A stretch of DNA of 64,000 nucleotides, from contig JAUYHF010000023.1 in NCBI GenBank assembly GCA_030690165.1, positions 1 through 64,000 on the forward strand. Direction: 5' to 3'. Both the position numbers and the translations under genes were made by a program. This DNA comes from Deltaproteobacteria bacterium. Lineage in GTDB: Bacteria; Desulfobacterota; GWC2-55-46; UBA9637. Within the stretch, counting starts at the first letter, position 1. Each line of letters begins with the position of its first letter. Shown one piece after another: positions 2,475 to 64,000 of the stretch. Under the pieces are notes generated by a model. That model was given only the letters and a program-made list of their open reading frames with translations. It made no database searches and was not told the DNA's origin.

Positions 2475-5411
2475 TTATGCTCTGCTAAATGCATATTTCT
2501 TTTCGCGCATATGAAAAGCAGCTTCTCCTCCTTCTAATATTTCGCAAACTTTCTCCCTTGTACCCAAATCTTTCCCTGTTGGGTCCTTCCTCGTATCTTC
2601 AATCGCTCCCAATGAATATGTTATCTTTGTTTCTCCAGAGGGAGGCGTCTTTTCAAATGAAGCAACTATTACTTGTTCTGAATCAGTGTTCACTACAAGG
2701 TTTGGATTGTGTGTTATAAGAATAATCTGTCTTCTGGTCTTAGCCTTCTGAAAATATCCAGTTAAAACTTTGTAGACAGATTGGTTGTCAAGATTCTCTT
2801 CTGGTTGATCTATCAACAGCGGTCGTCTGTCATTCTTGTCCATCTCTAAATACAGGATCAATAATACGATTCCTTTTACTCCAGGCGATAAGTTTTCTAA
2901 CTCTATCCCATCGTACTTAATTCCGTAATTAAGACTTATATGATCTGTGCTATACAGCCAGTCATCAAATTGGGCCTCAGATATTTCAGATAATAATTGA
3001 GATTGTAAAGTATATTCTCCATTTTTATCATCTAATGTTTCTCTTAACTCCAGAAGAGCTTTTTCAATATTCTCCTTATCTCTTGTTATCCAATATTGCT
3101 CTATTATTTCTTTTGCCTTAGTCGCCAGATCACCAGATGCTCTATACGGACCTTTTGTTCTATGGTCAAGTAGCGATTCCCCCTTATTAGCCCAATCAGT
3201 TGTACGAGCTTCCCATTTAATATAAAACTCTAAGCTTCTCTCTTCTTTATTACCAGCTTCCAAAGTATGACTTAGCGATCTATAGAGGTCTTCAAGTGTT
3301 TTCTGCTCCTCTTTAAGATTGTCGAAATAGCTTAAATACTTTCCCCATCGGTCTACAGATTTATTTTTTAGCTGTTCTGATTTACTTGATTTGATATCTT
3401 CTATTGTTTTATTTAGTTTATCAATCTCTGTATCAATAGCTTGAATCCTCTTCTGAATTTCAATGCTTTTTTGCTTCTTTGCCTGATCAACTGTTGATTT
3501 GGCTTCTAATTCAGCAATACGCTTGTCTATAGATTTATGAGTTGTTTTTTCCGGGTATGCATCTGTATCAAGCCCTGAGATTTCTTTAATTTCTCGTTCC
3601 AGTTGGTCATTTCTTTGATTCAATGGGGTTATTACGTCACCTTTAAATAAAGGTTCAAAATTACCAATTGTATCGCCTTCTATTCCTATATGTGCCAAAT
3701 CACTCTTTAATTGCTCGTAAAATTCATTTATATCTTCCTTGAAACTTTCTACCCTGTCTCTAATTTTCACAATCAGCTCAACGAGTTGCTTACTTTCACT
3801 TATCTTCTCAACAATTATTTTCCTTAAATCTCTCAGCTTTATTAATTCTTCTTCTATTTTCTGCTCTTCCTCGTTATCAAATGAAGGTATCTGCTTCTTA
3901 AGACCCTCTTTTTCATTCTTCAATTCATCAATTCTTTTCTCTTTTGAAGGCAATGACCTCTGTTCTTGATTCAGATGTAGTATTTCCTCATTAAGTTTGG
4001 TGATCGCAGCTCTAAGCCTTATCCTCTGTTCTCCAATTCGTTCTGTTTTCGTAGCTCTCAGATCTGCGAAGCTGGTTTCGCCAAGTTTATCTGTATCATC
4101 TAAATATTCAAATATTACATTCTCAATTTCATTTACAAGCTCCAGACCCACACGATCTTCTGAACATAATTGTTCAACAAATTGTTGTGAAAGGTATCGG
4201 ACTTTATTTTCTTTACCCGGCAAAAGAGGCTTTCCTATTTTTTTATTATCTGGTGAACCACCCAACCACTCCACAGTAACCTCAGTTCCTATGAGTTCCT
4301 TATGCGCTTTGTAAAGAAAAGATGCCTTATTCTCCTTCCACGATCCAGTTGCAAAGGCTGTTAAGTCAAGCAATGCTGTTTTGCCTGATCCTTTACCACC
4401 GATTACACTCACTAATGCGGGATTAATTGGGAATTTAATATCTGCAAACCATCCATTAGAATTTTTAAAATGGAGAGACTTTATAATACGATTTTCATCA
4501 CGCGTATCAGGAATTGTTTTGCCAATATGAACTCTTGCTTCAGGTTCATAAAGTATCTGGCGAAGACCTTCAAAAGTAGGATCAGCTTTTATCCAGCAAT
4601 AACGATCTAAATCTGGTTTAAAAAGCTTATCCTCTTTATGAGCGTCAGAACCATGCACACATGGCTTTCTACCATTAATTTTTCTTTCTAATTCTTCTTC
4701 TGTGTCTACTCCTTGTCCTAGAAAATATATGCGATCATTCGGATTACTTGATAACACTATGTGACTAAAACGGTAAATTTCAAGTCTTACAGCTTTATAA
4801 CCATCATCGTGTGACAAACCAGATGCTCCATCATTACTACTATTAGAAACTGCTATTATTGAATTCTTCTTGAGCCACGCCTCATTCTTAAACCAGTCCT
4901 TGAAACTATCGAAACTCGGCTTAAATTGACAAATTCCTTCTCTGTAGGCTACTTCATCTGTAATTAGTAAATCTTGTTTGTAAATTTTTCCAAGATTTGT
5001 TAGGCCGATTTGGTTGCAAGGGTATTTTTGCTCATTAAATGTGAAAGTAAAGCGGCTAAGTGCATCTTCAATATTATCAATATGATTGGAATCGGAAACA
5101 TCAACCAATATATGAATATTTATAGCAGCGCCTTCCTTAGTAAAAGGTGATATCCTGAACTCAATATTAGGCAAAATCAAATGAAAATTTTGAAGACGGT
5201 TGTTAACATTTTTCTCTTTGTAAATATTTTTATAGCCATCTATTGAGGCATAATCAGTAATTCCTATTGCACATATACTTGCATCAGCTAACTCAAGAGC
5301 TTTGATGTATGTCTCCCATCCTTCAAACTTATTATGTAGAACAGATTCTGGTGTATGAATGTGTAAATCCCATCGTCTCCACTCTGATCCTTTCGGGTAT
5401 TTACTTGGCAT
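2475..5411 (-). CDS. TrlF-like protein: PHP domain plus SMC/AAA-type ATPase, likely defence
   Basis: A protein of about 978 residues in the architecture NCBI calls the TrlF family. The N-terminal PHP phosphoesterase domain shows RRWDLHIHTPES (HxH), GITDYASID and a late HGSDAHKED motif. An ABC/SMC-like ATPase follows, with Walker A GGKGSGKTALLD near residue 340, a long charged coiled coil (about 440-720), Walker B LLIDQPEENLDN near 850 and a switch histidine in ILITHNPN. The ATG at 5411 is chosen because GGGAGGGG lies six bases upstream; an in-frame ATG at 5456 lacks this. Base composition is AT-rich compared with the core genes. PHP-ATPase proteins of this kind usually lie in defence islands and are thought to cleave nucleic acid; the actual substrate is unknown here. 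Confidence 0.85.
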   Translation of the reverse strand: MPSKYPKGSEWRRWDLHIHTPESVLHNKFEGWETYIKALELADASICAIGITDYASIDGYKNIYKEKNVNNRLQNFHLILPNIEFRISPFTKEGAAINIHILVDVSDSNHIDNIEDALSRFTFTFNEQKYPCNQIGLTNLGKIYKQDLLITDEVAYREGICQFKPSFDSFKDWFKNEAWLKKNSIIAVSNSSNDGASGLSHDDGYKAVRLEIYRFSHIVLSSNPNDRIYFLGQGVDTEEELERKINGRKPCVHGSDAHKEDKLFKPDLDRYCWIKADPTFEGLRQILYEPEARVHIGKTIPDTRDENRIIKSLHFKNSNGWFADIKFPINPALVSVIGGKGSGKTALLDLTAFATGSWKENKASFLYKAHKELIGTEVTVEWLGGSPDNKKIGKPLLPGKENKVRYLSQQFVEQLCSEDRVGLELVNEIENVIFEYLDDTDKLGETSFADLRATKTERIGEQRIRLRAAITKLNEEILHLNQEQRSLPSKEKRIDELKNEKEGLKKQIPSFDNEEEQKIEEELIKLRDLRKIIVEKISESKQLVELIVKIRDRVESFKEDINEFYEQLKSDLAHIGIEGDTIGNFEPLFKGDVITPLNQRNDQLEREIKEISGLDTDAYPEKTTHKSIDKRIAELEAKSTVDQAKKQKSIEIQKRIQAIDTEIDKLNKTIEDIKSSKSEQLKNKSVDRWGKYLSYFDNLKEEQKTLEDLYRSLSHTLEAGNKEERSLEFYIKWEARTTDWANKGESLLDHRTKGPYRASGDLATKAKEIIEQYWITRDKENIEKALLELRETLDDKNGEYTLQSQLLSEISEAQFDDWLYSTDHISLNYGIKYDGIELENLSPGVKGIVLLILYLEMDKNDRRPLLIDQPEENLDNQSVYKVLTGYFQKAKTRRQIILITHNPNLVVNTDSEQVIVASFEKTPPSGETKITYSLGAIEDTRKDPTGKDLGTREKVCEILEGGEAAFHMREKKYAFSRA

Positions 5412-5598
5412 AATGAACCCCTCCCTTAGAGTTGCTTTTATTGGCCTGATGAACAAGGCTTCCCGAAAACGCCCTTTTCAAAATCGCCTGCCGCAGGCGT
5501 TCAGCACGTTTAAGATTAATGTTCATTGTTCCTTCTATTTCCTCTGTGTTCACCGGGGACAGTCCCATCGTGTTCTCTACTCATTGCGTCCGTCCTTA
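5412..5598. other. Intergenic stretch with two short palindromes
   Basis: A perfect CGCCTGC-C-GCAGGCG hairpin lies at 5485-5499 and a GGGAC-A-GTCCC palindrome near 5555-5565. These look like small dispersed REP-like sequences. No gene or clear terminator is visible. They separate the RelE-type toxin gene from the TrlF-like gene. Confidence 0.5.
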
Positions 5599-5880
5599 TT
5601 ATTTTTTTCTATACACTTCATCGTGACTCCCTATATCAAAAAGGATAATTTCTTTTTCTTTAACGATAATTGTCAGCGTAACACGGTAGCTATGGGTTAG
5701 ACTCACTGCCTGTACGCCCTCAAGTTTTCCACCGAGGTAATGGAATTCAAGATGCGGCTGAAATGGATCACGCCGCAAATCTTCAACGAGTTCCTCAAAA
5801 GCCCGTTTCAAATCAGGGTGCTTTTTAAAAAACTTCTTTGCACAGCGCAAAAAATAGTTGGTGGTTGTTAAGCTGAACAC
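5599..5880 (-). CDS. RelE/ParE-superfamily toxin (mRNA interferase type)
   Basis: A 93-residue RelE-fold toxin. The helix pair CAKKFFKKHPDLKRAFEELV is followed by DLRRDPFQPHLEFHYLGGKL and then VSLTHSYRVTLTIIV and IILFDIGSHDEVYRKK. The last segment is the classic RelE/YafQ C-terminus (IGxHDEVY). It overlaps the upstream antitoxin by one base, which fits translational coupling. It probably cleaves mRNA on ribosomes; ParE-like gyrase poisoning cannot be excluded from sequence. Confidence 0.85.
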   Translation of the reverse strand: MFSLTTTNYFLRCAKKFFKKHPDLKRAFEELVEDLRRDPFQPHLEFHYLGGKLEGVQAVSLTHSYRVTLTIIVKEKEIILFDIGSHDEVYRKK

Positions 5881-6146
5881 TATTTTTCCAGTTCAAGCGC
5901 CTTTATCAACTCTTTGGCATTTTTAAATTTAGTTACCCTTCCTGCCTTTAAATCTTCAAGCGATGCCCGGATGCGGGCATTATACGCCTCATCCTCAGCC
6001 TCGACCAGTTCCTGATACCGTTCTTCTGAGAGGACAACATACTGAGGCTGATTGTTTTTGATAATGTGGACAGGCCCCTCTTTCAAAACTTCATCTACGG
6101 CCGAAATCCCCTTTCTCTTAATTTCCTGTGCAGCCAAGGTATTCAT
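5880..6146 (-). CDS. Phd/YefM-like antitoxin
   Basis: An 88-residue antitoxin, MNTLAAQEIKRKGISAVDEV at the start and HIIKNNQPQYVVLSEERYQEL in the middle. That central strand-helix motif (xxGxPxxVxLSxxxYxxL) is the Phd/YefM DNA-binding fold. The C-terminal third is charged and would wrap the toxin. It precedes and overlaps the RelE-type gene. By analogy the complex probably represses its own promoter in the 92-base gap to 6239. Confidence 0.85.
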   Translation of the reverse strand: MNTLAAQEIKRKGISAVDEVLKEGPVHIIKNNQPQYVVLSEERYQELVEAEDEAYNARIRASLEDLKAGRVTKFKNAKELIKALELEK

Positions 6147-6238
6147 TTTGATACTCCTTTAAGTATCTATTTTAGCGCTTAATTTATCTCAAAATTCCTT
6201 TTTAGTCAATCTAAAATCTTTAAATCGCAAATCTAAAT

Positions 6239-6694
6239 TCATAGTAACCCCGCCACCCCCACATTCTGCCATGTGCCGCTTACGACCTTCCAGTCTTTGT
6301 TTTCCTTTTTGAATATCAATTCAAATCTGTAGCCTGCAGCAGATTCAGGGATTATATCTTTAATGCTTTTTACTTCCTTGCCCCTGACAAGAATCACATT
6401 GGCCTTTACAAGGGCTGTGCCGCCCTTTACCTCTGCGTCTACGCTTCTCACAAAGATAGAAACAGTCTCTGCCCTAATGAAATGGTAAAGGAGTAGCCTC
6501 CTGACACTATCATAATCATTCCCTTCTTGATCTCTGTATGATTTGGAGATATGTTTTCTTACTCCGTCTATATCCTTTTTCTGGCCTGCCTCTGCAATAT
6601 CTTTTACTATGCCTTTTAATATATCTTCATCTGGCACACCCTTTGCACAGCCTGAGAAAATAAGAAGGCTAAGAAGAATAATCGCTGATCTCAT
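6239..6694 (-). CDS. Small lipoprotein of unknown function
   Basis: From the ATG at 6694 the protein has 151 residues and a lipoprotein signal (MRSAIILLSLLIFSGCAKG) with the lipid-accepting cysteine at residue 16. The body has a DEDILKGIVKDIAEAGQKKD helix and a C-terminal KVVSGTWQNV strand, recalling the NTF2/SnoaL-like lipoproteins. An upstream in-frame ATG at 6733 would put 13 residues before the signal and has poor spacing to its ribosome site, so it is less likely. It follows the small membrane protein gene closely. Confidence 0.65.
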   Translation of the reverse strand: MRSAIILLSLLIFSGCAKGVPDEDILKGIVKDIAEAGQKKDIDGVRKHISKSYRDQEGNDYDSVRRLLLYHFIRAETVSIFVRSVDAEVKGGTALVKANVILVRGKEVKSIKDIIPESAAGYRFELIFKKENKDWKVVSGTWQNVGVAGLL

Positions 6695-6713
6695 AACCAC
6701 CTGCTCTAATTTT

Positions 6714-6968
6714 TTATTTCCATTCCTTTCCAATCCTTGCGCCTATGAGTTGGCCTGCAAGAAGGGCAATAACGCTTACAGGGATAATGGCATAGCTGAA
6801 ACCAAAGAGCCTTCGCAGTATAATGTTTGCAAGTATGGGTATGTATATGCACCTCGCCCATGGCCTTGAAAATCTTGTAAATCTTTTTCGGTAGAAACCA
6901 ATCGGAATATTACCAAGCAGTATCAGCGACAGAAATGCAATAATGGAAAAACCTCCTGCCTCTACCAT
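6714..6968 (-). CDS. Small two-helix membrane protein
   Basis: 84 residues with hydrophobic segments at about 8-24 and 55-75, and a basic stretch (FYRKRFTRFSRPWARC) between them. I do not recognise a named family. It lies between the cytochrome c gene and the lipoprotein gene in the same direction, and the downstream gene starts within about 20 bases, so the two are probably co-transcribed. Function is unknown. Confidence 0.55.
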   Translation of the reverse strand: MVEAGGFSIIAFLSLILLGNIPIGFYRKRFTRFSRPWARCIYIPILANIILRRLFGFSYAIIPVSVIALLAGQLIGARIGKEWK

Positions 6969-6999
6969 CCCGCCTCCTCTCTGATATTTTGAATCTTAT

Positions 7000-7374
7000 T
7001 TAGAATATTCCCGCCTGCTTCTGGAGCCAACGGATATACTGAATAATCTGCTCTAACTTATCCCGGCTTATATTGGGAAGAGGCGGCATATTTCCAAATG
7101 TCCAATGGTGCGCTATTACGCCATTCTGAACCGCACGATAGAATGCCTCATCTGCATGATGATTTGGTTCATAAATTTTGTGCACCAACGGCGGCCCATT
7201 ATTAGCGCCTATTCCAGCCTGACCGTGGCATAAAGCACAGTTTTTGTTGAACAAGGTTTCCCCGCCTGTCAACTCCTTGGGAAGCTTTGCCTGCGCCAAA
7301 ACAAGCGCAAGATGAAGAGTTATGCTCAACAAAAATCCGCATATTGCCGCAAAAAAGATATTTTTTATCGCCAT
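7000..7374 (-). CDS. Periplasmic c-type cytochrome, mono-haem
   Basis: 124 residues. An N-terminal uncleaved or cleaved signal segment (residues 5-28) leads to a class I cytochrome fold with haem motif CALCH near residue 46 and a distal methionine in GNMPPLP near 99. The C-terminal helix IIQYIRWLQKQAG is typical of cytochrome c551/c553-like electron carriers. It probably shuttles electrons in the periplasm. It is the first gene after pfp on the same strand, with a short gap. Confidence 0.85.
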   Translation of the reverse strand: MAIKNIFFAAICGFLLSITLHLALVLAQAKLPKELTGGETLFNKNCALCHGQAGIGANNGPPLVHKIYEPNHHADEAFYRAVQNGVIAHHWTFGNMPPLPNISRDKLEQIIQYIRWLQKQAGIF

Positions 7375-7407
7375 AAATTTATTCCTCCTTATAATGTAAT
7401 CATAATC

Positions 7408-8436
7408 TCACCCAAAAAACACCTCTGCCACTTTGTATATATCCATATCAACTGTTTTTGTCTGCTTAACGCCTTCTTCAAGCGGGATGGCGACGATCTT
7501 ATTTCCCTGAAGCGCAACCATCGTGCCAAAATTGCCTTCATTTATACACTCCACTGCCCTGACGCCGTATCTTGTTGCCAAAATCCTGTCGTGGGCTGTC
7601 GGGCCTCCGCCTCTCTGCAAATGACCCAGGACAACATGCCGGCTCTCCACGCCTGTTGCCTTTTCAATCTCCTTTGCAAGGAATTCGCCGATGCCGCCAA
7701 GCATAGCATGGCCGAAGGCGTCTTTTTTTGCGTCCTTTGTAATATAGCCTTCAATCCCCTTTGGCACCGCGCCTTCTGCCACAACAATTATACTAAATCC
7801 CCTTCCCTGCCTTGCCCTTTTTCTGACAATATCAGCAACATCCTTAACCTCAAATGGCTTTTCAGGGATAAGTATCATATCCGCGCCGCCTGCAAGACCG
7901 CCATATACGGCAATCCATCCTGCGTGTCTCCCCATCACTTCAACAACCATTGCCCTGTGATGCGCCTCTGTTGTTGTGTGTAGCCTGTCAAGCGCCTCTG
8001 TTACGATGCTTATTGCCGTGTCAAAGCCGAAAGTAAAATCCGTGCCTGAAAGGTCGTTGTCTATGGTCTTTGGCACGCCTATTGTTTTTATTCCTTGCTT
8101 GTATAATTTTGCGGCAACACCAAGCGTATCATCGCCGCCAACGGCTATAAGCGCATCCAGTCCAAGCTTCTTTATATTATTTACAACCTTCTCTGCCATT
8201 TCAGGAGACTTGAAGGGGTTTGTCCTGGATGTGCCGAGGATCGTCCCACCCCTGGGAAGTATGCCCGATGCTGCTTTGGTATCCAGCGGCACGGTGTCAA
8301 TCTCCACCAGCCCTTTCCATCCGTCCTTGATGCCGATAACTTCATAACCGTAATTGACAGCCTTTTTTACAACTGCCCTTATTACAGCATTAAGTCCGGG
8401 GCAGTCGCCGCCGCCTGTAAGAATTCCTATTTTCAT
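7408..8436 (-). CDS. pfp: 6-phosphofructokinase, probably pyrophosphate-dependent
   Basis: 342 residues of the phosphofructokinase family; it phosphorylates fructose 6-phosphate at C1 in the cytoplasm. The start is GILTGGGDCPGLNAVIR, the catalytic loop is PKTIDND (residues 122-128), and substrate motifs MGRHAGW and GHLQRGG are present. Two donor-site positions are diagnostic: residue 103 is Asp (GGDDT) where ATP enzymes have Gly, and residue 123 is Lys (PKTID) where ATP enzymes have Gly. That combination is the signature of PPi-dependent enzymes, so glycolysis here may be reversible at this step. A strong GGAGGTGA site precedes the ATG. Confidence 0.85.
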   Translation of the reverse strand: MKIGILTGGGDCPGLNAVIRAVVKKAVNYGYEVIGIKDGWKGLVEIDTVPLDTKAASGILPRGGTILGTSRTNPFKSPEMAEKVVNNIKKLGLDALIAVGGDDTLGVAAKLYKQGIKTIGVPKTIDNDLSGTDFTFGFDTAISIVTEALDRLHTTTEAHHRAMVVEVMGRHAGWIAVYGGLAGGADMILIPEKPFEVKDVADIVRKRARQGRGFSIIVVAEGAVPKGIEGYITKDAKKDAFGHAMLGGIGEFLAKEIEKATGVESRHVVLGHLQRGGGPTAHDRILATRYGVRAVECINEGNFGTMVALQGNKIVAIPLEEGVKQTKTVDMDIYKVAEVFFG

Positions 8437-8452
8437 AATCTCACCTCCGTTT

Positions 8453-8497
8453 TTAGCTGATAGCTGATAGCAACTACTATGAGCTATGAGCTACGTT
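8453..8497. repeat. Word-type inverted repeat (AGCTGATAG / GAGCTAT)
   Basis: The stretch TTAGCTGATAGCTGATAG is followed by ACTATGAGCTATGAGCTA: two six-to-nine-base words repeated and arranged so that they partly pair. It lies at the end of the sensor kinase gene and before pfp. A related sequence occurs after gyrA at about 47636-47682. Confidence 0.6.
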
Positions 8498-9933
8498 CAC
8501 TGTTTTGCCATCTCATCCAATATCTCTGCTGTCCTGTCTTTAACAGGCAGATACACCTTAAACACGCTCCCTTTTCCGGCCTCGCTTTCCACCTCTATTT
8601 TACCGCCGTGCGCCTCTGCAATCTCTTTGCAGATGCTTAAGCCGAGACCCACGCCGCCCGCGCCTGTTGTCCTTGCCTTATCCACTCTGTAAAAGCGGTC
8701 AAATATATGAGGAAGGTCTTCCTCTGCAATGCCCATGCCTGTGTCAATTACTTTAATTATAGCCCAATTATCCGACTGTTCCAGCGAAATCTCTATCCTG
8801 CCGTCCTTTGGCGTATATTTAATGGCATTATATATCAGATTGAACAGAAGCTGGCCTATCCCAATCTTGTCCCCCATTATAACAACACCTTCTTTCTTAG
8901 CCATAACCATATCAATGCCTTTGTCTTTTGCCAGAGGCAGGGTTTGATTAAACCTCTCTTCAACAATCCCATCCAGCTTTATATTATCATTAGGCAGTCT
9001 AACCCTGCTGTCAAGTTTTGCAAGATTAAGGAGGCTCTTTACAAGGGCGCTCATCTTATCTATCTCTTCAAGGCTGCTCTTAATAACCTCCTTGAAGCCT
9101 TCTACTGTTTTTTCAGTTTTAAGCGCAATCTCCATCTCGCCTTTCAGAACAGTCAAAGGGGTTTTCAGTTCATGAGACGCATCTGCTGTAAATTGCTTCA
9201 TCTGTTTAAAAGAAAGTTCAAGCCTTGCAATCATGTCATTAAATGTCTTTGCCAATCTCCCGAGTTCATCTTTAGGGCCGGAGACATCTAATCTCTCGTT
9301 TAAGCTCCCTGCCTCTATCTTTCTGGCAAGGACTGTAACCATATCCACAGGGCTAAGCGCTTTTTTTGCAAGGAACCAGCCCACACCGCTTGCCAATATT
9401 ACAGCAAGAGGGATTCCAAATATCAGGATATAAAACAAAGCGTTTAGCGCCGCAGTAGATTCCTGCAGCGGCGCGCCGACCTGCAATATGCTTATTAGCT
9501 GGCCATTTTCCATTAAAGGAAATGTAACAATCCTGACCGGATACTGGCCTATGTTTTTTATGGTCTCATATGTGGCATTGCCGGCAATAGAATGATGATA
9601 CGTCTGGGCTGACAAAGGAAGATGGTTTTTCCCGAGGGTTGAAGATGTAAATACTATCTTGCCATATTCATCCATCAGTTGAATAAAATTGCCTGATGTC
9701 TTTATTCCAAAGAAATGCTCAAGAAAGATATCAAAGTTTTGAGGCAGATTTACGGTGCCGGGCCTGAATACTGCCCTGGAAACCATATCGGCCATGGAGA
9801 ATAACCGCGCATCAATTGAGCTTATAATGTTTCTTGAGAGCGCAACATACAGGATAGAGCCGAATGTGATGAGGCTGGCAGCAAGAAGCGTTGTATACCA
9901 GATTGTCAGTTTAGCCCGGATGGGAAGGGTCAT
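8497..9933 (-). CDS. Membrane sensor histidine kinase with HAMP domain
   Basis: 478 residues. Transmembrane helix 1 spans about 10-32 and helix 2 about 165-187, with a periplasmic sensor loop between. A HAMP linker (PVDMVTVLARKIEAG, DELGRLAKTFNDMI) follows. The phosphoacceptor box FTADASHELKTPLTVLKGE carries the histidine, and the ATPase part has an N box (LIYNAIKYT) and G boxes DTGMGIAEEDLP and GVGLGLSICKEI. It resembles the heavy-metal-type HK subfamily usually encoded right after its response regulator. Here apt lies upstream and no regulator is adjacent, so it is an orphan or its partner was lost. Confidence 0.9.
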   Translation of the reverse strand: MTLPIRAKLTIWYTTLLAASLITFGSILYVALSRNIISSIDARLFSMADMVSRAVFRPGTVNLPQNFDIFLEHFFGIKTSGNFIQLMDEYGKIVFTSSTLGKNHLPLSAQTYHHSIAGNATYETIKNIGQYPVRIVTFPLMENGQLISILQVGAPLQESTAALNALFYILIFGIPLAVILASGVGWFLAKKALSPVDMVTVLARKIEAGSLNERLDVSGPKDELGRLAKTFNDMIARLELSFKQMKQFTADASHELKTPLTVLKGEMEIALKTEKTVEGFKEVIKSSLEEIDKMSALVKSLLNLAKLDSRVRLPNDNIKLDGIVEERFNQTLPLAKDKGIDMVMAKKEGVVIMGDKIGIGQLLFNLIYNAIKYTPKDGRIEISLEQSDNWAIIKVIDTGMGIAEEDLPHIFDRFYRVDKARTTGAGGVGLGLSICKEIAEAHGGKIEVESEAGKGSVFKVYLPVKDRTAEILDEMAKQ

Positions 9934-9958
9934 AATAAGTAAGGATTAGAGGTTGTTT

Positions 9959-10477
9959 TCAAAACTTTATCAGAGAAAATACCGGATAGTCTTTGAGTTT
10001 GCTTCTGCCGTTGAGCGCCTCAATCTCAGAAAGGAATGCGCATCCTACAATCTGGCCGCCCATTTTTTCTATAAGATGTATAACTGCCGACATCGTTCCG
10101 CCTGTTGCCAGTACATCGTCTGCTATAAGCACCTTTTGGCCGGGGCTTACGGCATCCTGATGTATCTCAAGACTGTCTTCGCCATATTCTAATTTATAAG
10201 ATGCCTTATGGGTTTTGTGCGGCAGCTTGCCGGGCTTTCTCACGAGTATAACCCCTGCGCCAAGCTTGTATGCCAGCGCCGCCCCCACAATAAACCCCCT
10301 TGCCTCAATACCTACAATCAGGTCAATGTGCTTCCCGACATAGCGGTGGCTCATCAAGTCCACTGTTGTCTGGAATGAAACAGGGTCTTTTAAGAGCGTT
10401 GTTATGTCTTTAAAGAGTATCCCCTTCTTAGGGAAATCAGGGACATCTCTTATAATCTTTTTTAACGCTTCTACCAT
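9959..10477 (-). CDS. apt: Adenine phosphoribosyltransferase
   Basis: 172 residues from the ATG at 10477. It converts adenine and PRPP to AMP in purine salvage. Family marks are [20 protein letters not shown] at the start, [15 protein letters not shown] and the PRPP loop [14 protein letters not shown]. The start is set by AGGAGG seven bases upstream; earlier in-frame ATGs at 10483 and 10513 lie on or before that site. A word-type repeat fills the gap upstream. Confidence 0.95.
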
Positions 10478-10497
10478 AATCATCCCTCCTATGAAAC

Positions 10498-10625
10498 TCA
10501 AACAACAACTCAAAACTCAAATGTCAAATCTCAAAATTAAAACTCAAAACCTTAAAACTGATTTAAAAGTTTTGAGTTATAAGGCTATAGTTTTGACTTT
10601 TGAGTTATGTTTGAGTTTATACTAT
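10498..10625. repeat. Word-type inverted repeat of AACTCAAA units
   Basis: Left arm words AACTCAAA, CTCAAATG, TCTCAAAA and right arm words TTTTGAGTT, TTTGAGTTA, TTTGAGTTT face each other around a short centre. The whole gap between the M23 peptidase gene and apt is made of these words. The copies are imperfect, and no open frame is visible. Possible roles are RNA stem-loop formation or a small mobile palindrome. Confidence 0.7.
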
Positions 10626-10633
10626 AAACTATT

Positions 10634-11464
10634 TTAAGGCAAGAAAAAAAGAGGGTTTCTTGGCTTCTTGTCCTTTCTTACTTCAAAGTGCAGATGCGGA
10701 CCGGATGAATTGCCGGTATTCCCCAATCTGGCGATAACACTCCCCTTCTCCACCATCTCCCCGCCCTTTACAAGGTTTTCCCTATTATGTGCATAAATCG
10801 TGATGAAGCCGTCTTTGTGCTTTAACATCACCATATTGCCGTAGCCTCTTACGCCGTCGTCGCTGTATATAACCTCGCCGTCAGCAGCGGCTAATACAGA
10901 ACTGCCTGTCGGAGCGGCTATATCTATTCCATCATGCTTTTTTCCATTCCTTACGCCAAATAAAGAAATCATCTCACCCTTTACAGGCCATGAAAATCTC
11001 CATTTTTCCACAACTATCTTGCCTTCCGGTCCTTCTTTTGATTCTTCTCGGGAGGGAGATTGGTTGTTTGTAGATTTGCGTATATCTTGAGTCTTCGGTT
11101 CCCTGCTTAAAACTTGCGGGGACAAGCTTGAGTCTTGCAACTGATATGGTTCAACCTTTAAAACCTGCCATGCGCCCGGTATAAATAGTTTCTGTCCTTC
11201 TTTTATCTGCGTTATATCGGTAATGTCATTAAATTCAGCCACATCCTGAATATCAACATTATAAGTCTTTGCTATCCTCCACAAAGTCTGGCCCTTTTCT
11301 ATTTTGTGATAAACTCCGTATGAAATAGCGCAGCCAAGCAAAACAAGACAGGCCACAGACCAAAGACTCAGGACTAAAGTCTTTAGTCTCGTGTATTGTG
11401 TCTGTTTTAATGAACCGAACCTGTCCACTTTTTTGCCGCAATAAAACCTAATATTAAAAGCCAA
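10634..11464 (-). CDS. LysM and M23 peptidase protein, NlpD-like
   Basis: 276 residues, envelope-located. A hydrophobic segment ending in VLLGC may be a lipoprotein or anchor signal (cysteine near residue 45). A LysM peptidoglycan-binding domain follows (KIEKGQTLWRIAKTYNVDI to EGQKLFIPG), then a low-complexity linker (about 120-165), then an M23 domain with KHDGIDIAAP and PHLHFEVR. Both zinc motifs (HxxxD and HxH) are intact, so it is probably an active endopeptidase rather than a degenerate activator. The start at 11464 overlaps the upstream gene by 58 bases and is uncertain. Upstream are DedA, pcm and surE, the familiar surE-pcm-nlpD order. Confidence 0.85.
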   Translation of the reverse strand: MAFNIRFYCGKKVDRFGSLKQTQYTRLKTLVLSLWSVACLVLLGCAISYGVYHKIEKGQTLWRIAKTYNVDIQDVAEFNDITDITQIKEGQKLFIPGAWQVLKVEPYQLQDSSLSPQVLSREPKTQDIRKSTNNQSPSREESKEGPEGKIVVEKWRFSWPVKGEMISLFGVRNGKKHDGIDIAAPTGSSVLAAADGEVIYSDDGVRGYGNMVMLKHKDGFITIYAHNRENLVKGGEMVEKGSVIARLGNTGNSSGPHLHFEVRKDKKPRNPLFFLP

Positions 11465-12021
11465 ATAAAGATTAAAGACAGGACATTAAAATATTTTTCA
11501 ATAAATTCCTTTATACGTTGACCAAATCTATGTATCAGCCATGCAACAATATAAAACCTAAGAGACCTTCCAACAATTGATGCGATAGTAAATGTAAAGA
11601 TATTCAGCTTAAATGCGCCTGCTGTGATTGTAATTAATTTATACGGTATCGGCGTAAATGCGGCAATAAATACAATCATGGCATTATGCTCCTCATACGA
11701 GCGCCTTATAATCTCATACTGAGAAGTCACGCCATAGAACTTGATTATAGGAAATCCGATAATGTCCATCATTTGCCAGCCTATGAGATACCCAAAAAGG
11801 CCGCCGATAATAGAGCCTAAAGAGCATATAAAGGCGTATCTGAATGATTTGGCGGGTATTGATATGGCAAGCGCGATAAGGAGCACATCCGGCGGAATAG
11901 GGAAAAACGAGGATTCTGTAAATGCCAGAATAAAAAGCGCCCATGTGCCGTAGGGCGTGTGCGCCCAGTGCAAAACCCAGTCATACAACCTTTTTAAAAT
12001 GTGCTGTCTTCTGCCTTCCAT
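11407..12021 (-). CDS. DedA/YqaA-family membrane protein
   Basis: 204 residues from the ATG at 12021, which has GGGAGG five bases upstream. It is a SNARE-associated/DedA-like protein with several membrane helices and the motifs [13 protein letters not shown] near residue 38 and [16 protein letters not shown] near 125. Proteins of this family move lipids such as undecaprenyl phosphate or phospholipids across the inner membrane; the substrate here is unknown. The gene starts inside the 3' end of pcm and ends inside the start of the M23 gene, a tightly packed operon. Confidence 0.85.
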
Positions 12022-58665: not shown

Positions 58666-58752
58666 GAAGAGGTTGTCAGGAGCTATCTTCAGATTGATTA
58701 GCACGATAACGTTGTGGTAGTCTTTATGCTGCCGGTATTTAAAAGGTGTTCT

Positions 58753-59076
58753 ATGCCATTAAAACAATCAGAAAAAAATGCCATTGGGGAGCTAAAGAAG
58801 ATTTTAAGCGAAAAATATAGCCTGCTTGATTTTCGCGTGTTCGGTTCAAAAGCAAGGGAGGAGGACACCCCTGAATCTGATATAGATATAATGATTGAAC
58901 TATCTGAATTAAACCCGCGTATTGAGGCTGATATTGACAAAGCCATATTCAATATCAATTTACAATATGACTGTTTTATATCAGCAGTGCTTTTCAGCAA
59001 GAAGGAGTTAGAAGAAGGTCCGCTTGACCAATCGCCGTTATACAGGGTTATAGAAAGGGAGGGAATATCTCTTTGA
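58753..59076 (+). CDS. MNT-type nucleotidyltransferase (antitoxin-like)
   Basis: 107 residues from ATG 58753 with AAGGTG four bases upstream. FRVFGSKAREEDTPESDIDI gives the GS and DxD metal motif, and SPLYRVIEREGISL is the usual MNT tail. It overlaps the HEPN gene by four bases. In such pairs the nucleotidyltransferase modifies and silences the HEPN RNase. It marks the left edge of the AT-rich accessory block. Confidence 0.88.
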   Translation: MPLKQSEKNAIGELKKILSEKYSLLDFRVFGSKAREEDTPESDIDIMIELSELNPRIEADIDKAIFNINLQYDCFISAVLFSKKELEEGPLDQSPLYRVIEREGISL

Positions 59077-59483
59077 CCTCCGAAGAAAAAAGGCGCGAAC
59101 TGGCCATTTATCGCCTGAAACAAGCCGCAGAAACCCTTGATGAGGCGAAATATCTTTTGTCCGGCAGAAAAAGTCCCAGGTCTGTAATAAATAGAGTTTA
59201 CTATGCAATGTTTTATGCCATCCTCGGCCTGCTGATATTTGAGCCTTACACATCCTCCAAGCACAGCGGAGTTTTATCCTACTTTAACCGCAGATTTATC
59301 AAAAGCGGCCTATTGCCAAATGATATTGGCGAAGCCGTGAATATTGCCTTTGAGATGCGCCAACGAGGGGACTATAGGGAATATGTAGAGCTTACTTATG
59401 AGCAGGCAGAACCTTTCATAGATAAGACCGAGTGGTTTATCAAGGCCATTCGGAATTATTTGTCGGAGAATAAACTGATTTGA
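59073..59483 (+). CDS. HEPN-domain protein (toxin-like)
   Basis: 136 residues, TTG start. Helical HEPN fold: IYRLKQAAETLDEAKYLL, SPRSVINRVYYAMFYAILGL and TYEQAEPFIDKTEWFIKAI. The NRVYYAMFYA segment is typical of the HEPN family that pairs with MNT proteins. The RxxxxH catalytic motif is not obvious, so this may be a substrate-binding rather than RNase-type HEPN. Coupled to the MNT gene. Confidence 0.85.
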   Translation: MTSEEKRRELAIYRLKQAAETLDEAKYLLSGRKSPRSVINRVYYAMFYAILGLLIFEPYTSSKHSGVLSYFNRRFIKSGLLPNDIGEAVNIAFEMRQRGDYREYVELTYEQAEPFIDKTEWFIKAIRNYLSENKLI

Positions 59484-59559
59484 GAACTGGCAATAAACGG
59501 ACGCTATTTTATCTTTTAAAAAGCTTATAATCTATTCAAAATTGTTAATGTGAGAGTTT

Positions 59560-60579
59560 ATGGAAAATATAACTGTAAATCTTGATGGCATTCCAACAGA
59601 GATACGACGGTTAAAAATTCCCTTGAAGCAGCTTATTCTTGATATAGAAAATCCGCGTATACAGTATTACCTTGATACCAGATTAAATGACAATATTACT
59701 CAAGAGAAGGTAAAATTTGCTCTTGCTGAAGGTAACGACCAATATGAAAGGTTAAAGGACCACATAGAACGCAATGGAGGTATATACGACCCAATATGGG
59801 TGGTAGTTTCTAAAGATGACCACTTTACTGTAATAGAAGGGAATACAAGGGCATTTATTTATGAAGAGCTTTCGGAGAAATATGTTACTGATGAGAAATG
59901 GAAAACTATTGATGCTTGTATATTGCCGTATAAAGTAGACCAAAACAGAATAAATTTCATACGGTTGGAGAAACATCTTTTTGGGTCAACTCCTTGGGCA
60001 GCCTATGAAAAGGCAAGAGAATTATATCGCCTTCATACTCAAGAAGATTATTCTTTAAAGCGTCTCGAACAACTTACGAAACTAAAAGCTGCTGATATAA
60101 GGAATAATATTCAGGCTTATATGGATATGGAAGAACAATACCTTAAAAAATATAATAAGCCTTCAGAGAGGCTTAAGTTTAGCTATTTTGTTGAATTCAG
60201 AAAAAACAAGGAACTAAAAAAATTGGTCAAGGACGGCAAACTCTCATTGATAGATTTCTGTGATTGGGTTGGTGAAGGGAAATTTGGCAGAGGTGAAGAT
60301 GTTCGGAAGCTACCATTAGTGCTTAAAGATGAGCAAGCAAGGGAAGCTTTGATTAGCGATAATTTTCAGGTAGCCCTTGACCAGTTAGAGCAAAAAAATC
60401 CTGCTGCCAAATCAAAACTATTTGAGAAAATTGAAGATGTGATAGAAGGATTTGAAAGTCTGCCTTTTGGAGAATTGGATGAAATTAAGAGAGGGCTTCA
60501 ACCTGCGAAAGTTAATGCTCTCAAGAGACTGCTTGATGTAACTTCAAACCTTTTAAAGAATATAGGCACGATTAAATAG
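59560..60579 (+). CDS. ParB/Srx-fold protein 1 of a putative defence operon
   Basis: 339 residues. N-terminal ParB-like domain (about 15-130): LKQLILDIENPRIQYYLDTR at its start and TVIEGNTRAFIYEELSEKY, where EGNTR is the ParB/Srx nucleotide-binding motif. A helical segment with LKRLEQLTKLKAADIRNNIQ could be helix-turn-helix-like. The C-terminal half has FSYFVEFRKNKELKKLVKDG and DFCDWVGEGKFGRGEDVRKL. It is colinear with the protein at 62409. A GAG-type weak ribosome site precedes the ATG. The next gene starts with the overlapping GTG of TAGTG. Likely a CTPase/ATPase-like DNA-binding regulator or nuclease; not a chromosome-partition ParB. Confidence 0.8.
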   Translation: MENITVNLDGIPTEIRRLKIPLKQLILDIENPRIQYYLDTRLNDNITQEKVKFALAEGNDQYERLKDHIERNGGIYDPIWVVVSKDDHFTVIEGNTRAFIYEELSEKYVTDEKWKTIDACILPYKVDQNRINFIRLEKHLFGSTPWAAYEKARELYRLHTQEDYSLKRLEQLTKLKAADIRNNIQAYMDMEEQYLKKYNKPSERLKFSYFVEFRKNKELKKLVKDGKLSLIDFCDWVGEGKFGRGEDVRKLPLVLKDEQAREALISDNFQVALDQLEQKNPAAKSKLFEKIEDVIEGFESLPFGELDEIKRGLQPAKVNALKRLLDVTSNLLKNIGTIK

Positions 60580-60986
60580 TGGCTAGCGATAAACATCAAT
60601 TTATACTTGGATTGGTTATCAAGAAAATGAGAGAGGAAGGAGTCATTATATATGGCGTTGATGGAGATTATCCTGGGCTTTTTGGAGAAAAAATAGAATT
60701 ACCTCCCCAGATATTAAGGCACAGGCCTGATGCTATAGGAATTAAAGAAAGTAGGCAGGTCTGTATTGGCGAAGCTAAAACAGAAACTGACATTACAAAT
60801 GATAGGACATATGAGCAACTTCATGATTTTTCATCTATTGAACTTAATGGGAAACAATGCGAAATTTTTATTGGTATACCTAAGTCTTCCGAATGTATTT
60901 TTAACAAAAGTTTAGAAAGGATAGGACTAAAAGATTGCAGTAATATCCATGTGTTGTATATACCAGATGAAATAATCAATGATTGA
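60579..60986 (+). CDS. PD-(D/E)XK nuclease-like protein
   Basis: 135 residues, GTG start overlapping the previous stop. The core reads HRPDAIGIKESRQVCIGEAK, a PD-(x13)-ExK pattern with hydrophobic strands either side, as in PD-(D/E)XK nucleases. The following segment TDITNDRTYEQLHDFSSIEL has a conserved-looking Thr/Gln helix. No other domain is visible. It overlaps the helicase gene by eight bases. Suggested to be the DNA-cutting or DNA-binding part of the operon; the motif assignment is from sequence only. Confidence 0.65.
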   Translation: MASDKHQFILGLVIKKMREEGVIIYGVDGDYPGLFGEKIELPPQILRHRPDAIGIKESRQVCIGEAKTETDITNDRTYEQLHDFSSIELNGKQCEIFIGIPKSSECIFNKSLERIGLKDCSNIHVLYIPDEIIND

Positions 60987-62406
60987 GACAAAACAAAACT
61001 ATGAAGCAAAAACACAAGCACTTCCTCATCAGACTGAAGCTATTAATTTTATATACGAGCATCAAGAAGTAGCATTATTTGATGAGCAAGGTCTCGGTAA
61101 AACAAAAATTATTATTGATGCATTATGTTGGGCAATGAGGCGTGGAGAAATAGAAGGGGTGTTGGTGGTAGTACCTATGTCATTGCTCTATATTTGGGAA
61201 CAAGAAGTAATAAAACATTCCTTTCTTATTCCAATTATATTAAAAGGTTCTAAAAGAGAAAAGCGATATAAATTTATGACTGGTGCAAATTTTTATGTAA
61301 CCAATTATGAAGCCGTTATTGCCGAGACTCAGCGGATAAAGCGATTTTGTAAAAGCCGTAAAGTTGCTATTGTTCTTGATGAATCTGCAAGAATTAAAGA
61401 CCCTTCTACTAAAACTGCACAGGCATTATTTCAACTTATTCCATTCTCAACTAAAAGAATAATAATTACAGGAACCCCCGTGGCTAACAAACCTTTTGAT
61501 TTATGGTCGCAATTTTATTTTCTTGATGAAGGGAAACTTTTAGGTGCAGATTTTGATGAATTTAAGGCAAAGTTTAATGAAAGAAGCCCTGTCTATCAAG
61601 AAAATCTCGGCGAATTAAAAAAGATAGTTGCAAATAATTCCATTAGACGTTGTAAAAATGAAGTCTTGGAGCTTCCAGAAAAGAGGTTTATAAATTGTTA
61701 TGTGGAACTCTCAGGGAAGCAGCTTGGTTTATACAATAAACTACGTGGGGAATTAAAAGTTGAAGTTATGAATACCAACGGCGATATTATTATTGACGAA
61801 GCTGAAAATATCCTCAAAAAGTTACTGAGGCTGACACAGATTGCAAGCAATCCCGCTCTCATAGATAAAGGCTATACTGACACTCCGGTAAAGTTTGCAT
61901 TCCTTGACAATTTGCTGAAAGAAATTGTCTCAAAAAGGGAGAAGGCTATTGTATGGACAAATTTTGTGGAAAACATTATGATTCTTAAAAATAGATTTTT
62001 TCAGTATAGCCCCCTTATAATTTATGGAGAAATTCCAATTAAAGATAGGGCAGAGGCTGTAAAAAAATTTCAGGATTCAGATAAAAACATGATTATGATT
62101 GCTAACCCGGCAGCAGCAAGAGAAGGATTGACTTTAACGAGGGCAAATAATGCTATTTATTTAGATAGAAACTTTAATCTTGTTGATTATCTTCAGTCTC
62201 AGGATAGAATTCACCGAATATCCCAGACAAAAGAATGTAATATATATAAAATATTGGCCAAAAACACTATAGATGAGTATATAGATAAATTGGTAGAAGT
62301 AAAACAGGATATTGCTGGATATATACAAGGAGACAAAAAGGTGTTTCAAGATGAGAGTTACGAATTTTTATTAAATAAGCAAGAACTATTAAGCATACTG
62401 GGATAA
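60979..62406 (+). CDS. SNF2-type superfamily 2 helicase
   Basis: 475 residues, short. Motif I DEQGLGKTKIIID, Ia VVPMSLLYIWEQEV, motif II as VLDESARIKDPSTK, motif III IITGTPVANKPFDLWSQFYF, motif V GLTLTRANNAIYLDRNFN and motif VI SQDRIHRISQT. These define a compact SNF2/RapA-like translocase. Motif II is DESA rather than the common DEAH/DEGH. It has no fused extra domain, so partners probably supply target recognition and cutting. Overlaps the upstream gene and lies two bases before the second ParB-like gene. Confidence 0.92.
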   Translation: MIETKQNYEAKTQALPHQTEAINFIYEHQEVALFDEQGLGKTKIIIDALCWAMRRGEIEGVLVVVPMSLLYIWEQEVIKHSFLIPIILKGSKREKRYKFMTGANFYVTNYEAVIAETQRIKRFCKSRKVAIVLDESARIKDPSTKTAQALFQLIPFSTKRIIITGTPVANKPFDLWSQFYFLDEGKLLGADFDEFKAKFNERSPVYQENLGELKKIVANNSIRRCKNEVLELPEKRFINCYVELSGKQLGLYNKLRGELKVEVMNTNGDIIIDEAENILKKLLRLTQIASNPALIDKGYTDTPVKFAFLDNLLKEIVSKREKAIVWTNFVENIMILKNRFFQYSPLIIYGEIPIKDRAEAVKKFQDSDKNMIMIANPAAAREGLTLTRANNAIYLDRNFNLVDYLQSQDRIHRISQTKECNIYKILAKNTIDEYIDKLVEVKQDIAGYIQGDKKVFQDESYEFLLNKQELLSILG

Positions 62407-62408
62407 AA

Positions 62409-63443
62409 ATGACAAAGAAAGAGACAATAATAGTAAAAGGCAGAGAAATATCATACGAAATAAAAGATGTAGATATTTATAGTCTTGAGTATTATAAAGA
62501 GAATCCGAGAATTAACTATATTATAAGTAAACATCCTCCAGAAAAAGTAACACAAGAATTTATCCAGGATGAGCTTCTTAAATTGGACTCGGTCAAGGAG
62601 AGGATTAAAGACCTTGAAGAAAATAAAGGACTTTTGGACGAAGTTTATGTTCTTGGCAATAAAGTTGTTGAAGGCAATACAAGGCTATGTGCTTTCAGAA
62701 GGCTACATAAAAAACATCAAGACGACCCGAGGTGGAAGTTTATTAAAGCAAGAATTCTTCAAAATGATGTTACCGATGATGAGCTTTTTTATATTCTTAG
62801 TACTTTTCATATAAAAGGTAAAACTGAATGGGATGCTTATGAAAAGGCAGCTTATATCTATAAAATGATTAAAGTTTTAAATAAAAATCCTGAAGAAATA
62901 TGTAAACAATTGGGCAAGCAGAGAAAGACTGTTGAAGCTATGTTGAATGCTTATGAAATGATGTCAAGAAAGTATCTCGCTACTATCCCAGAGACAGAAC
63001 TAGTTAATGGTGTAAGAGACCAATTGAAAAAATACAGTTATTTTGAGGCATTTTTTCTGCAAAAGGACTTGGTGCAAAGGATTAAAGAGACCCCTGCTTT
63101 TCTGGATGAATTTGTTGAGTGGGTTAAAGAAGATAGGTTCAAAAGGGCACAAGAAGTTAGGGAGCTTCCGAAAATTTTGGGTAATAAAAAAGCATGCAAA
63201 ACCTTTTATGAAGCTGACGCTGAGGAGGCATTTGATGATGCAATACACATTCTTTATGAACATAAGCCAGAGAAGGTGGATAGATTTTATAAAAAGGTTA
63301 GAGAGTTTAGAGATTTAATTAAAGAGGTTGAAGCTCTAAAAATCAAAGCAGAGATAGAGGAGAATAAGAACAAGAAGGCAGAGCTACAACAATGTTATAA
63401 GGAATTAAAGAGGTTTTGTAAGGAAGTAGGGCTTGAAGTATGA
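62409..63443 (+). CDS. ParB/Srx-fold protein 2 of a putative defence operon
   Basis: 344 residues, paralogous along its whole length with the protein at 59560. It shares ENPRINY, VVEGNTRLCAFRRLH, TEWDAYEKAAYIYKM, KYSYFEAFF and FVEWVKEDRFKRAQEVRELP in the same order and spacing. The C-terminus has a lysine/glutamate coiled coil (about 300-340). The pair suggests a heterodimer or a duplicated target-recognition part. It begins two bases after the helicase stop. Confidence 0.8.
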   Translation: MTKKETIIVKGREISYEIKDVDIYSLEYYKENPRINYIISKHPPEKVTQEFIQDELLKLDSVKERIKDLEENKGLLDEVYVLGNKVVEGNTRLCAFRRLHKKHQDDPRWKFIKARILQNDVTDDELFYILSTFHIKGKTEWDAYEKAAYIYKMIKVLNKNPEEICKQLGKQRKTVEAMLNAYEMMSRKYLATIPETELVNGVRDQLKKYSYFEAFFLQKDLVQRIKETPAFLDEFVEWVKEDRFKRAQEVRELPKILGNKKACKTFYEADAEEAFDDAIHILYEHKPEKVDRFYKKVREFRDLIKEVEALKIKAEIEENKNKKAELQQCYKELKRFCKEVGLEV

Positions 63444-63462
63444 ATAAGAGGAGGTACATCAA

Positions 63463-64000
63463 ATGGGTATTTTTAAAGTGCAAAGAGTACAACAAAATGA
63501 TTGGGTGTTTTATGTCTTTGTTATAAAGTCTGATTTGTTAAACAAAATAGCTTATGTAAGTAGTAGATATAAAGATAAAATTGAAGGTTATCAAAGAAAC
63601 CTTTCAGAAAAAAGAGCAGAAGAAATACAAGATTATATTTTTAAACTTAAAGGTGTTATTCCTAATAATATAATCCTGAATTTCAATATAGAATTAAACT
63701 ATAATGAGAAAAATAACACAATATCCTTTGATATAAACGATAATATTGCATGGATAATAGATGGTCAGCATAGGCTCTATGGATTAGTATTAAGTAAAAC
63801 GCCAATTGATGTTGTTGTAGTTGCTTTTGAAAAACTAGACATATCGGATCAAACCAAGATTTTTAAAACAATAAACTCAACACAGAAAGGTGTAAACGCC
63901 TCTTTAATTTATGACCTTATCGATTTAATAAAGGATACAAGTTATATAGAGGCAAGGGCACATGAGTTGGTTAAAAAATTAAATGAAGATATAGAATCTC
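63463..64000 (+). CDS. DGQHR-domain (DndB-like) protein, 3' end outside window
   Basis: The frame is open from ATG 63463, with GAGGAGG seven bases upstream, to the window end (179 codons). The hallmark is NIAWIIDGQHRLYGLVLSKT near residue 105, followed by IFKTINSTQKGVNASLIYDL. This is the DGQHR domain of DndB-type proteins, found near phosphorothioate modification and other restriction loci. It is the fifth gene in a row and the third with a ParB/DGQHR-like nucleotide motif. Low GC like the genes before it. Confidence 0.85.
   Translation, partial: MGIFKVQRVQQNDWVFYVFVIKSDLLNKIAYVSSRYKDKIEGYQRNLSEKRAEEIQDYIFKLKGVIPNNIILNFNIELNYNEKNNTISFDINDNIAWIIDGQHRLYGLVLSKTPIDVVVVAFEKLDISDQTKIFKTINSTQKGVNASLIYDLIDLIKDTSYIEARAHELVKKLNEDIES

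Follow-up and report, generated by a model that had tools for sequence, protein, structure and literature searches.

The right end of the window, by which we mean the whole stretch of 64,000 nucleotides analysed here (positions 1-64,000 of contig JAUYHF010000023.1 of a Deltaproteobacteria bacterium, assembly GCA_030690165.1), carries five genes that belong to a mobile gene set made of two modules. Module A encodes a ParB-fold protein (ParB1), a small predicted nuclease of the PD-(D/E)XK type, a compact SNF2 translocase and a second ParB-fold protein (ParB2); module B encodes a DGQHR protein, a radical S-adenosylmethionine (radical SAM) protein and a GHKL ATPase. Judged from gene order and protein distances, these are two co-inherited modules that recombine with each other. 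The source contig runs on to 64831, where the assembled sequence stops, so that the window copy ends before the radical SAM part. A preliminary description of this DNA had suggested that genes to the right might complete the set, and relatives bear this out: there the set continues to a radical SAM gene and usually a GHKL ATPase gene, which lie beyond the sequence read at that time and are its most informative parts.

The order ParB1, nuclease, SNF2, ParB2 is conserved in 16 loci of unrelated genomes, window included, which supports the arrangement first described. The carriers are Nitrospirae, Brocadia, alphaproteobacterial plasmids and integrative or prophage contigs, and two more loci hold the same gene types in a rearranged order. 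A search of plasmids with ParB returned seven records that represent six distinct loci, from Rhizobium, Mesorhizobium (one plasmid in two records), Bradyrhizobium and Roseomonas. All six carried the ParB-nuclease-SNF2-ParB genes together with genes for DGQHR, radical SAM and GHKL ATPase proteins, the Bradyrhizobium copy being rearranged, and a PIN_8 and GHKL pair was often also present. The window SNF2 alone retrieved no relatives from the viral_contigs collection, whose IMG/VR contigs may represent prophages or pieces of host DNA, and a profile of the SNF2 alignment retrieved 80 loci. Eight of these scored at least 531 bits, all with ParB1-PDExK-SNF2-ParB2 contiguous on the same strand, and none of ParB1, PDExK and ParB2 was found in the remaining 72. 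Plasmid SNF2 matches divided likewise, with 39-45% identity where module A genes were present and at most 30.5% where they were not. The possibility that the cassette arose from a phage helicase-nuclease pair was considered and found no support: the 72 phage-type SNF2 loci lack the other genes, and the THSA-485A helicase has no annotated nuclease neighbour.

Module A is also linked to the radical SAM gene. In seven of the eight high-scoring viral contigs, radical SAM and GHKL genes adjoin module A; in the eighth, L048, a radical SAM gene of another subfamily lies directly upstream. Searches that used only ParB or SNF2 yielded 16 loci, 15 of which have the same radical SAM family within about 8 kb, L048 again being the sixteenth. 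This family is rare, occurring in 4 of 297 genomes of the window's phylum, and the co-occurrence counts together with this rarity argue that the linkage is not due to chance. L048 itself is prophage-like (IMGVR_UViG_2878915049_000003, 3788-11455) and contains, in a row, a reverse transcriptase-like protein (by eye), the radical SAM protein of the different subfamily (6200-7558) and module A; a non-orthologous radical SAM protein here stands in place of the usual one.

The two halves of the set are distinguishable by how they vary. Pairwise protein distances are strongly correlated within module A (r = 0.93-0.97) and within module B (radical SAM with GHKL, 0.87; radical SAM with DGQHR, 0.97), and less so between the modules (0.38-0.78). 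Two Rhizobiales plasmid loci, L012 and L015, have radical SAM proteins that are 98% identical, compared with 41% for ParB1, 36% for the nuclease, 60% for SNF2 and 49% for ParB2, and L045 and L046 share 90% identity in the radical SAM protein versus 45% in ParB1. Together, these values indicate that the blocks have been exchanged against each other, or that module A diversifies much faster. In Roseomonas and Bradyrhizobium, DGQHR-rSAM-GHKL forms a separate convergent operon (rSAM denoting radical SAM), which likewise divides the gene set into two halves. L045 also has a DISARM DrmD-like SNF2-type helicase (by eye; 8919-11801) directly after both modules, near its integrase-bearing edge, and these surroundings suggest a defence island.

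Module B is also used with other defence-like partners. In L017 (15183-17492) and L018 (8499-10859), a large DGQHR protein of 769-786 amino acids replaces module A next to DGQHR-rSAM-GHKL, and the large DGQHR protein of Novosphingobium has a weak C-terminal match to HEPN_Swt1. The radical SAM gene lies beside HerA and GHKL genes in L020 and L032, and in L041 it adjoins a ParB that resembles PD-Lambda-5_A. In L031 (4163-10382; G168:C570), genes resembling PbeA, PbeC and PbeD are followed directly by a radical SAM gene of the same family; that assembly has no DndC match, and the radical SAM protein may replace the usual modification partner. Three further loci were noted. Marinitoga camini virus 1 (L019:7995-10771) encodes a related radical SAM protein (34% identity) by HerA and a nuclease-like gene, in an arrangement that resembles the HerA-GHKL-rSAM clusters of L020 and L032. 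An uncultured archaeon plasmid (LC711081.1; L023:6615-12188) has a distant radical SAM gene (63 bits) and then three consecutive annotated DNA methyltransferases. A phage-like contig (IMGVR_UViG_3300044686_000005; L036:2191-5408) contains radical SAM and GHKL genes only, with no module A; if the radical SAM protein does mark DNA, this pair could serve phage self-protection.

Features of the window locus, with coordinates in window positions unless stated otherwise.
Feature	Coordinates	Strand	Description
MNT/HEPN pair (nucleotidyltransferase and HEPN)	58714-59483		Basis: Pfam NTP_transf_2 and HEPN
Left insertion edge	59495..59559	.	Same-genus homology (91% identity) ends at 59494, directly after the HEPN gene; GC drops to 33% onward
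ParB1	59560..60579	+	339 aa; ParB/Noc-like predicted clamp protein; NPR and EGNTR motifs; module A
Small predicted PD-(D/E)XK nuclease	60579..60986	+	135 aa; PD51...E65xK67; module A
Compact SNF2 translocase	60979..62406	+	475 aa; motor core only; module A
ParB2, ParB1 paralogue	62409..63443	+	344 aa; EGNTR motif; module A
DGQHR (DndB/DpdB-related) protein	63463..64000 in window; open reading frame ends at contig position 64467	+	334 aa complete; module B

The five open reading frames lie on one strand with overlaps or gaps of at most 20 bases (Table), and the preliminary description of them as such agrees with their coordinates and with homologues of matching length and order. The closest of these homologues are in L003, a metagenome-assembled genome (MAG) of Nitrospirae, and L004, a MAG of Candidatus Brocadia, where proteins of the same length and order are 66-86% identical to those of the window (75-76% for SNF2). 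The exception is DGQHR, with only 35% identity between the window and L004. Well-matched pairs of homologous genes have nonsynonymous distances (dN) of 0.08-0.25, with synonymous distances (dS) saturated or above 1.6, which indicates that the genes are under purifying selection. The L003 and L004 blocks run on to the radical SAM gene, and the interval between it and DGQHR is occupied by a gene for a 277-amino-acid (aa) protein in L003 (13485-14318) and for a metallo-beta-lactamase in L004 (13460-14734). The reading frame that follows DGQHR in our contig, cut by the contig end at 64831, is 54% identical to the 277 aa protein of L003. Between L003 and L004, DGQHR is 35% identical and the flanking genes are 69-87% identical, which points to a swap of the segment containing DGQHR and the 277 aa or metallo-beta-lactamase gene.

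The gene assignments made earlier were upheld, those of the ParB and restriction-endonuclease folds by structure prediction and Foldseek. ParB1 matched the Spo0J profile of Helicobacter pylori (4umk, E = 3e-4), and its AlphaFold model, with a mean predicted local distance difference test score (pLDDT) of 86.1, had Noc, ParB and KorB as best Foldseek matches (E 3e-6 to 5e-4, about 230 columns). The low template modelling (TM) scores of these matches (0.2-0.6) mean that the similarity covers domains only and not their arrangement. ParB1 and ParB2 are 33% identical (E 2.6e-27), and an EGN[T/S]R motif is present in both in 16/16 loci. The model thus confirms ParB1 as a predicted ParB/Srx-fold protein with nucleotide motifs. 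The 135 aa protein had no match in a Pfam search, and a sequence search of the Protein Data Bank (PDB) gave no useful match for it or for DGQHR. Its model (pLDDT 88.9) has a restriction-endonuclease-like topology, with EndoMS/NucS as best Foldseek matches (2vld and 5gke, E 2-4e-4) and further matches to folds of the same kind. P50, D51, E65 and K67 are invariant in an alignment of eight homologues, and the PD..ExK pattern is kept in 15 of 16 small nucleases, L048 reading AD for PD. These data confirm the prediction of a nuclease with a restriction-endonuclease-like fold and a PD-...-ExK motif. The SNF2 protein matched SNF2-rel_dom (7e-35) and Helicase_C (3e-14) in Pfam, has the Sulfolobus Rad54/SNF2 core as its closest solved relative (1z63, E = 1e-46) and carries the motifs GLGKT, DES and QxxDRxxRxSQ.

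Among the module B proteins, the last window gene contains the DGQHR motif and matched the NCBIfam DGQHR domain (TIGR03187, 1.6e-37) and Pfam DndB (5e-12). The radical SAM proteins of L003 and L004 scored above the cut-off for Pfam Radical_SAM, and the CX3CX2C cluster motif is present in 14 of 14 family members. GHKL_a proteins occur near other genes of the set in 12 loci, all 12 with intact DxGxG and GxxGxG motifs.

The cassette is an insert. Comparison by blastn with a genome of the same genus, G147, gave 82-91% DNA identity across tyrA and the MNT/HEPN pair, ending at window position 59494. The GC content of the cassette is 33.3%, compared with 37.4-45.9% in same-size windows of the background, in keeping with its early description as AT-rich; this drop and the stop in homology mark the cassette as inserted, with the MNT/HEPN pair outside it. 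In G147 the pair also sits after tyrA (91% DNA identity), and it was not found beside the L003 or L004 cassettes. The pair does adjoin the cassette, as first described, and Pfam supports its identity, but its membership of the system is rejected on the grounds of this same-genus synteny and its absence beside L003 and L004; by these comparisons the pair was resident in the genus earlier. Beyond HEPN, G147 encodes a 244 aa protein (L132:10502-11236, G147:C55; by eye, a helix-turn-helix and a nuclease-like domain), a 170 aa protein and then aroA, and this chromosomal spot between HEPN and aroA may be a defence-gene hotspot. The window, L003 and L004 copies lie in chromosomal-type neighbourhoods. 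Other carriers include conjugative plasmids, and a tyrosine integrase lies at the edge of L037 and L045; from its distribution, the gene set is mobile and has been transferred repeatedly.

ParB-fold proteins such as Noc, ParB and KorB act as DNA clamps under nucleotide control, SNF2 motors move along double-stranded DNA, and the DNA-modification systems Dnd and Dpd both include DGQHR proteins. We favour a reading in which the gene set is a mobile, restriction-type defence system of two modules, with A sensing and cutting and B providing self identity, and we consider that this reading could go either way. The two ParB-fold proteins would probably form nucleotide-gated clamps on DNA and bring in the SNF2 motor together with the small nuclease, the latter two acting jointly as a split translocating endonuclease. 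The radical SAM protein would most likely mark host DNA chemically, or license such a mark, with help from the DndB/DpdB-like DGQHR protein and from a MORC-like GHKL clamp gated by ATP, and this self mark would cause module A to spare self DNA. The modification-guided or nucleotide-gated restriction proposed in the preliminary description can be inferred on better grounds than before. A more specific version, in which the radical SAM protein, with its B12-binding-like N-terminal region, makes a new base or backbone modification that is read by paired ParB clamps loading a split SNF2/PD-(D/E)XK nuclease, and in which several unrelated restriction modules share the radical SAM block as a portable module of self identity, is possible but doubtful.

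Several observations weigh against the favoured reading. The radical SAM protein is nearly constant beside strongly diverged ParBs, unlike a sequence-specific methylase-like partner, which suggests that sequence specificity does not originate with this protein. A PDB search at E ≤ 0.01 gave no match for it, it stayed below the cut-off of every NCBIfam model, and among the generic models closest to it are enzymes with protein, lipid or small-molecule substrates. In L003 and L004, the closest relatives of the window, no GHKL gene adjoins the radical SAM gene (the 277 aa or metallo-beta-lactamase gene is there instead), which means that GHKL is not universal, and several loci (L044-L050) gave no DGQHR match. 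The radical SAM gene is also absent from the window's own assembly, as a search elsewhere in that genome found none. An alternative that we think improbable but deserving of weight is that the radical SAM protein modifies protein, RNA or the nucleotide pool, by a viperin-like logic, and that ParB-SNF2-nuclease forms a separate effector, directed at invader DNA or working through abortive infection. Radical SAM enzymes catalyse a very wide range of reactions, and none of the family matches points to DNA as a substrate; near constancy beside a diverging module A is expected of an enzyme with no need to match sequence specificity; and the PIN_8 partners and weak HEPN_Swt1 match in several loci would fit RNase or suicide effectors. 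However, the recurring neighbours are DNA-modification or restriction machinery (DGQHR, PbeA/C, and GHKL with SNF2 and a restriction endonuclease), which argues against this alternative but is not decisive.

Many of the carriers are plasmids or integrative elements, and the folds of the ParBs closely resemble those of Noc, ParB and KorB, as would be expected of a maintenance or competition cassette of such elements, in which the ParBs act in partition or blocking and the nuclease and motor destroy competitors. The title of reference 19 in PMC10853773 indicates that some ParB/Srx proteins mediate conjugative plasmid conflict. However, the conserved block contains no ParA partner, the window, L003 and L004 copies are chromosomal in setting, and partition would leave the radical SAM, GHKL and nuclease genes unexplained; we regard this account as quite unlikely. 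We give very little credence to the idea that the set is a diverged form, lacking some parts, of Dnd, Dpd, Zorya, BREX or DISARM. The DGQHR gene does resemble DndB/DpdB, and the SNF2 gene resembles ZorD, DpdE and DrmD, but the latter similarity covers the motor half only and does not come near the NCBIfam cut-offs (ZorD, 104 of 1500 bits; DpdE, 18 of 500), the genome has no DndC and the locus has no other named component.

If the favoured reading is right in that the radical SAM protein marks DNA, it would represent a new class of DNA-modifying chemistry beside methylation, phosphorothioation and 7-deazaguanine and its relatives, and would account for the recurrence of ParB-fold and DGQHR proteins near modification systems. 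The recombining two-module design offers a testable route to which block marks self and which attacks, and culturable carriers exist in Rhizobium and Mesorhizobium, with Novosphingobium for module B; in Rhizobium leguminosarum WSM1325 the set lies on plasmid pR132505. Should no new chemistry be involved, the gene set is still widespread, without a name and not called by PADLOC.

The claim that the five-gene set has no name still stands: no name for it was found in PADLOC (2023), NCBIfam (2026) or Pfam profiles, and the open-access literature yielded no description of ParB-nuclease-SNF2-ParB with radical SAM, an earlier account elsewhere being possible. By the features tested, it is not Dnd, Dpd, Zorya, BREX, DISARM or Pbe. 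For BREX and DISARM, PglZ, BrxC, DrmA-DrmB and the methylase had no match above cut-off among the locus proteins. With Dnd and PbeABCD the set shares a DndB/DGQHR relative and, in L031, the radical SAM family next to Pbe-like genes. Unlike those systems, it shows no TIGR03183 (DndC) match at E ≤ 1e-10 in G000 or four other genomes, its DndB equivalog score is at best 34 of 328 bits (TIGR03233), only the DGQHR domain model exceeding its cut-off, and module A has no gene in common with Pbe; in the PADLOC scan, the PbeA HKD-helicase and PbeC ABC ATPase matched no module A or B protein and were seen only beside the radical SAM gene of L031. Dpd is similar in its DGQHR protein (DpdB-like, 119 bits in L003) and in an SNF2 protein related to DpdE, but the scores are far under the equivalog cut-offs (300 bits for DpdB), and DpdA (TGT), DpdC and other Dpd genes were not found among the operon proteins of the window, L003, L004 and L012, the search being confined to these. 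According to PMC12839542, DpdB is a ParB-like ATPase that serves base insertion.

Zorya type I is related through ZorD, whose helicase half the SNF2 protein resembles and which also joins SNF2 to an Mrr-like nuclease, whereas here there is no ZorA, ZorB or N-terminal half of ZorD and the nuclease is a separate protein. ParB1 has a weak N-terminal match to PD-Lambda-5_A (E 5e-8), which recalls the ParB of L041, but only about 85 residues match and the other components of PD-Lambda-5 are absent here. The ParB-CTPase fold proteins ParB, Noc and KorB share with ParB1 the predicted fold and, where the nucleotide site is expected, the NPR and EGNxR motifs, and differ from the present set in that here there is no ParA partner, the neighbours are a nuclease and a motor, and each locus has two paralogues. 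Operons of GHKL, SNF2, restriction endonuclease and methylase genes constitute the MORC restriction-modification (R-M) theme (Iyer et al. 2008, PMC2292703). Those MORC/paraMORC operons carry DNA methylases, with no mention of ParB or radical SAM, whereas the conserved block here contains no DNA methyltransferase and has two ParBs and a radical SAM gene in the methylase place. The characteristic feature of the GHKL/MORC type, a GHKL protein with intact ATP motifs near an SF2 helicase and a nuclease, was found, the window contig ending before it. As in those operons, a GHKL ATPase, a SWI2/SNF2-type helicase and a restriction-endonuclease-fold protein are combined in one mobile operon, and for the GHKL proteins of R-M operons a role in looping the DNA that lies between the sites of recognition and cleavage has been put forward (PMC2292703).

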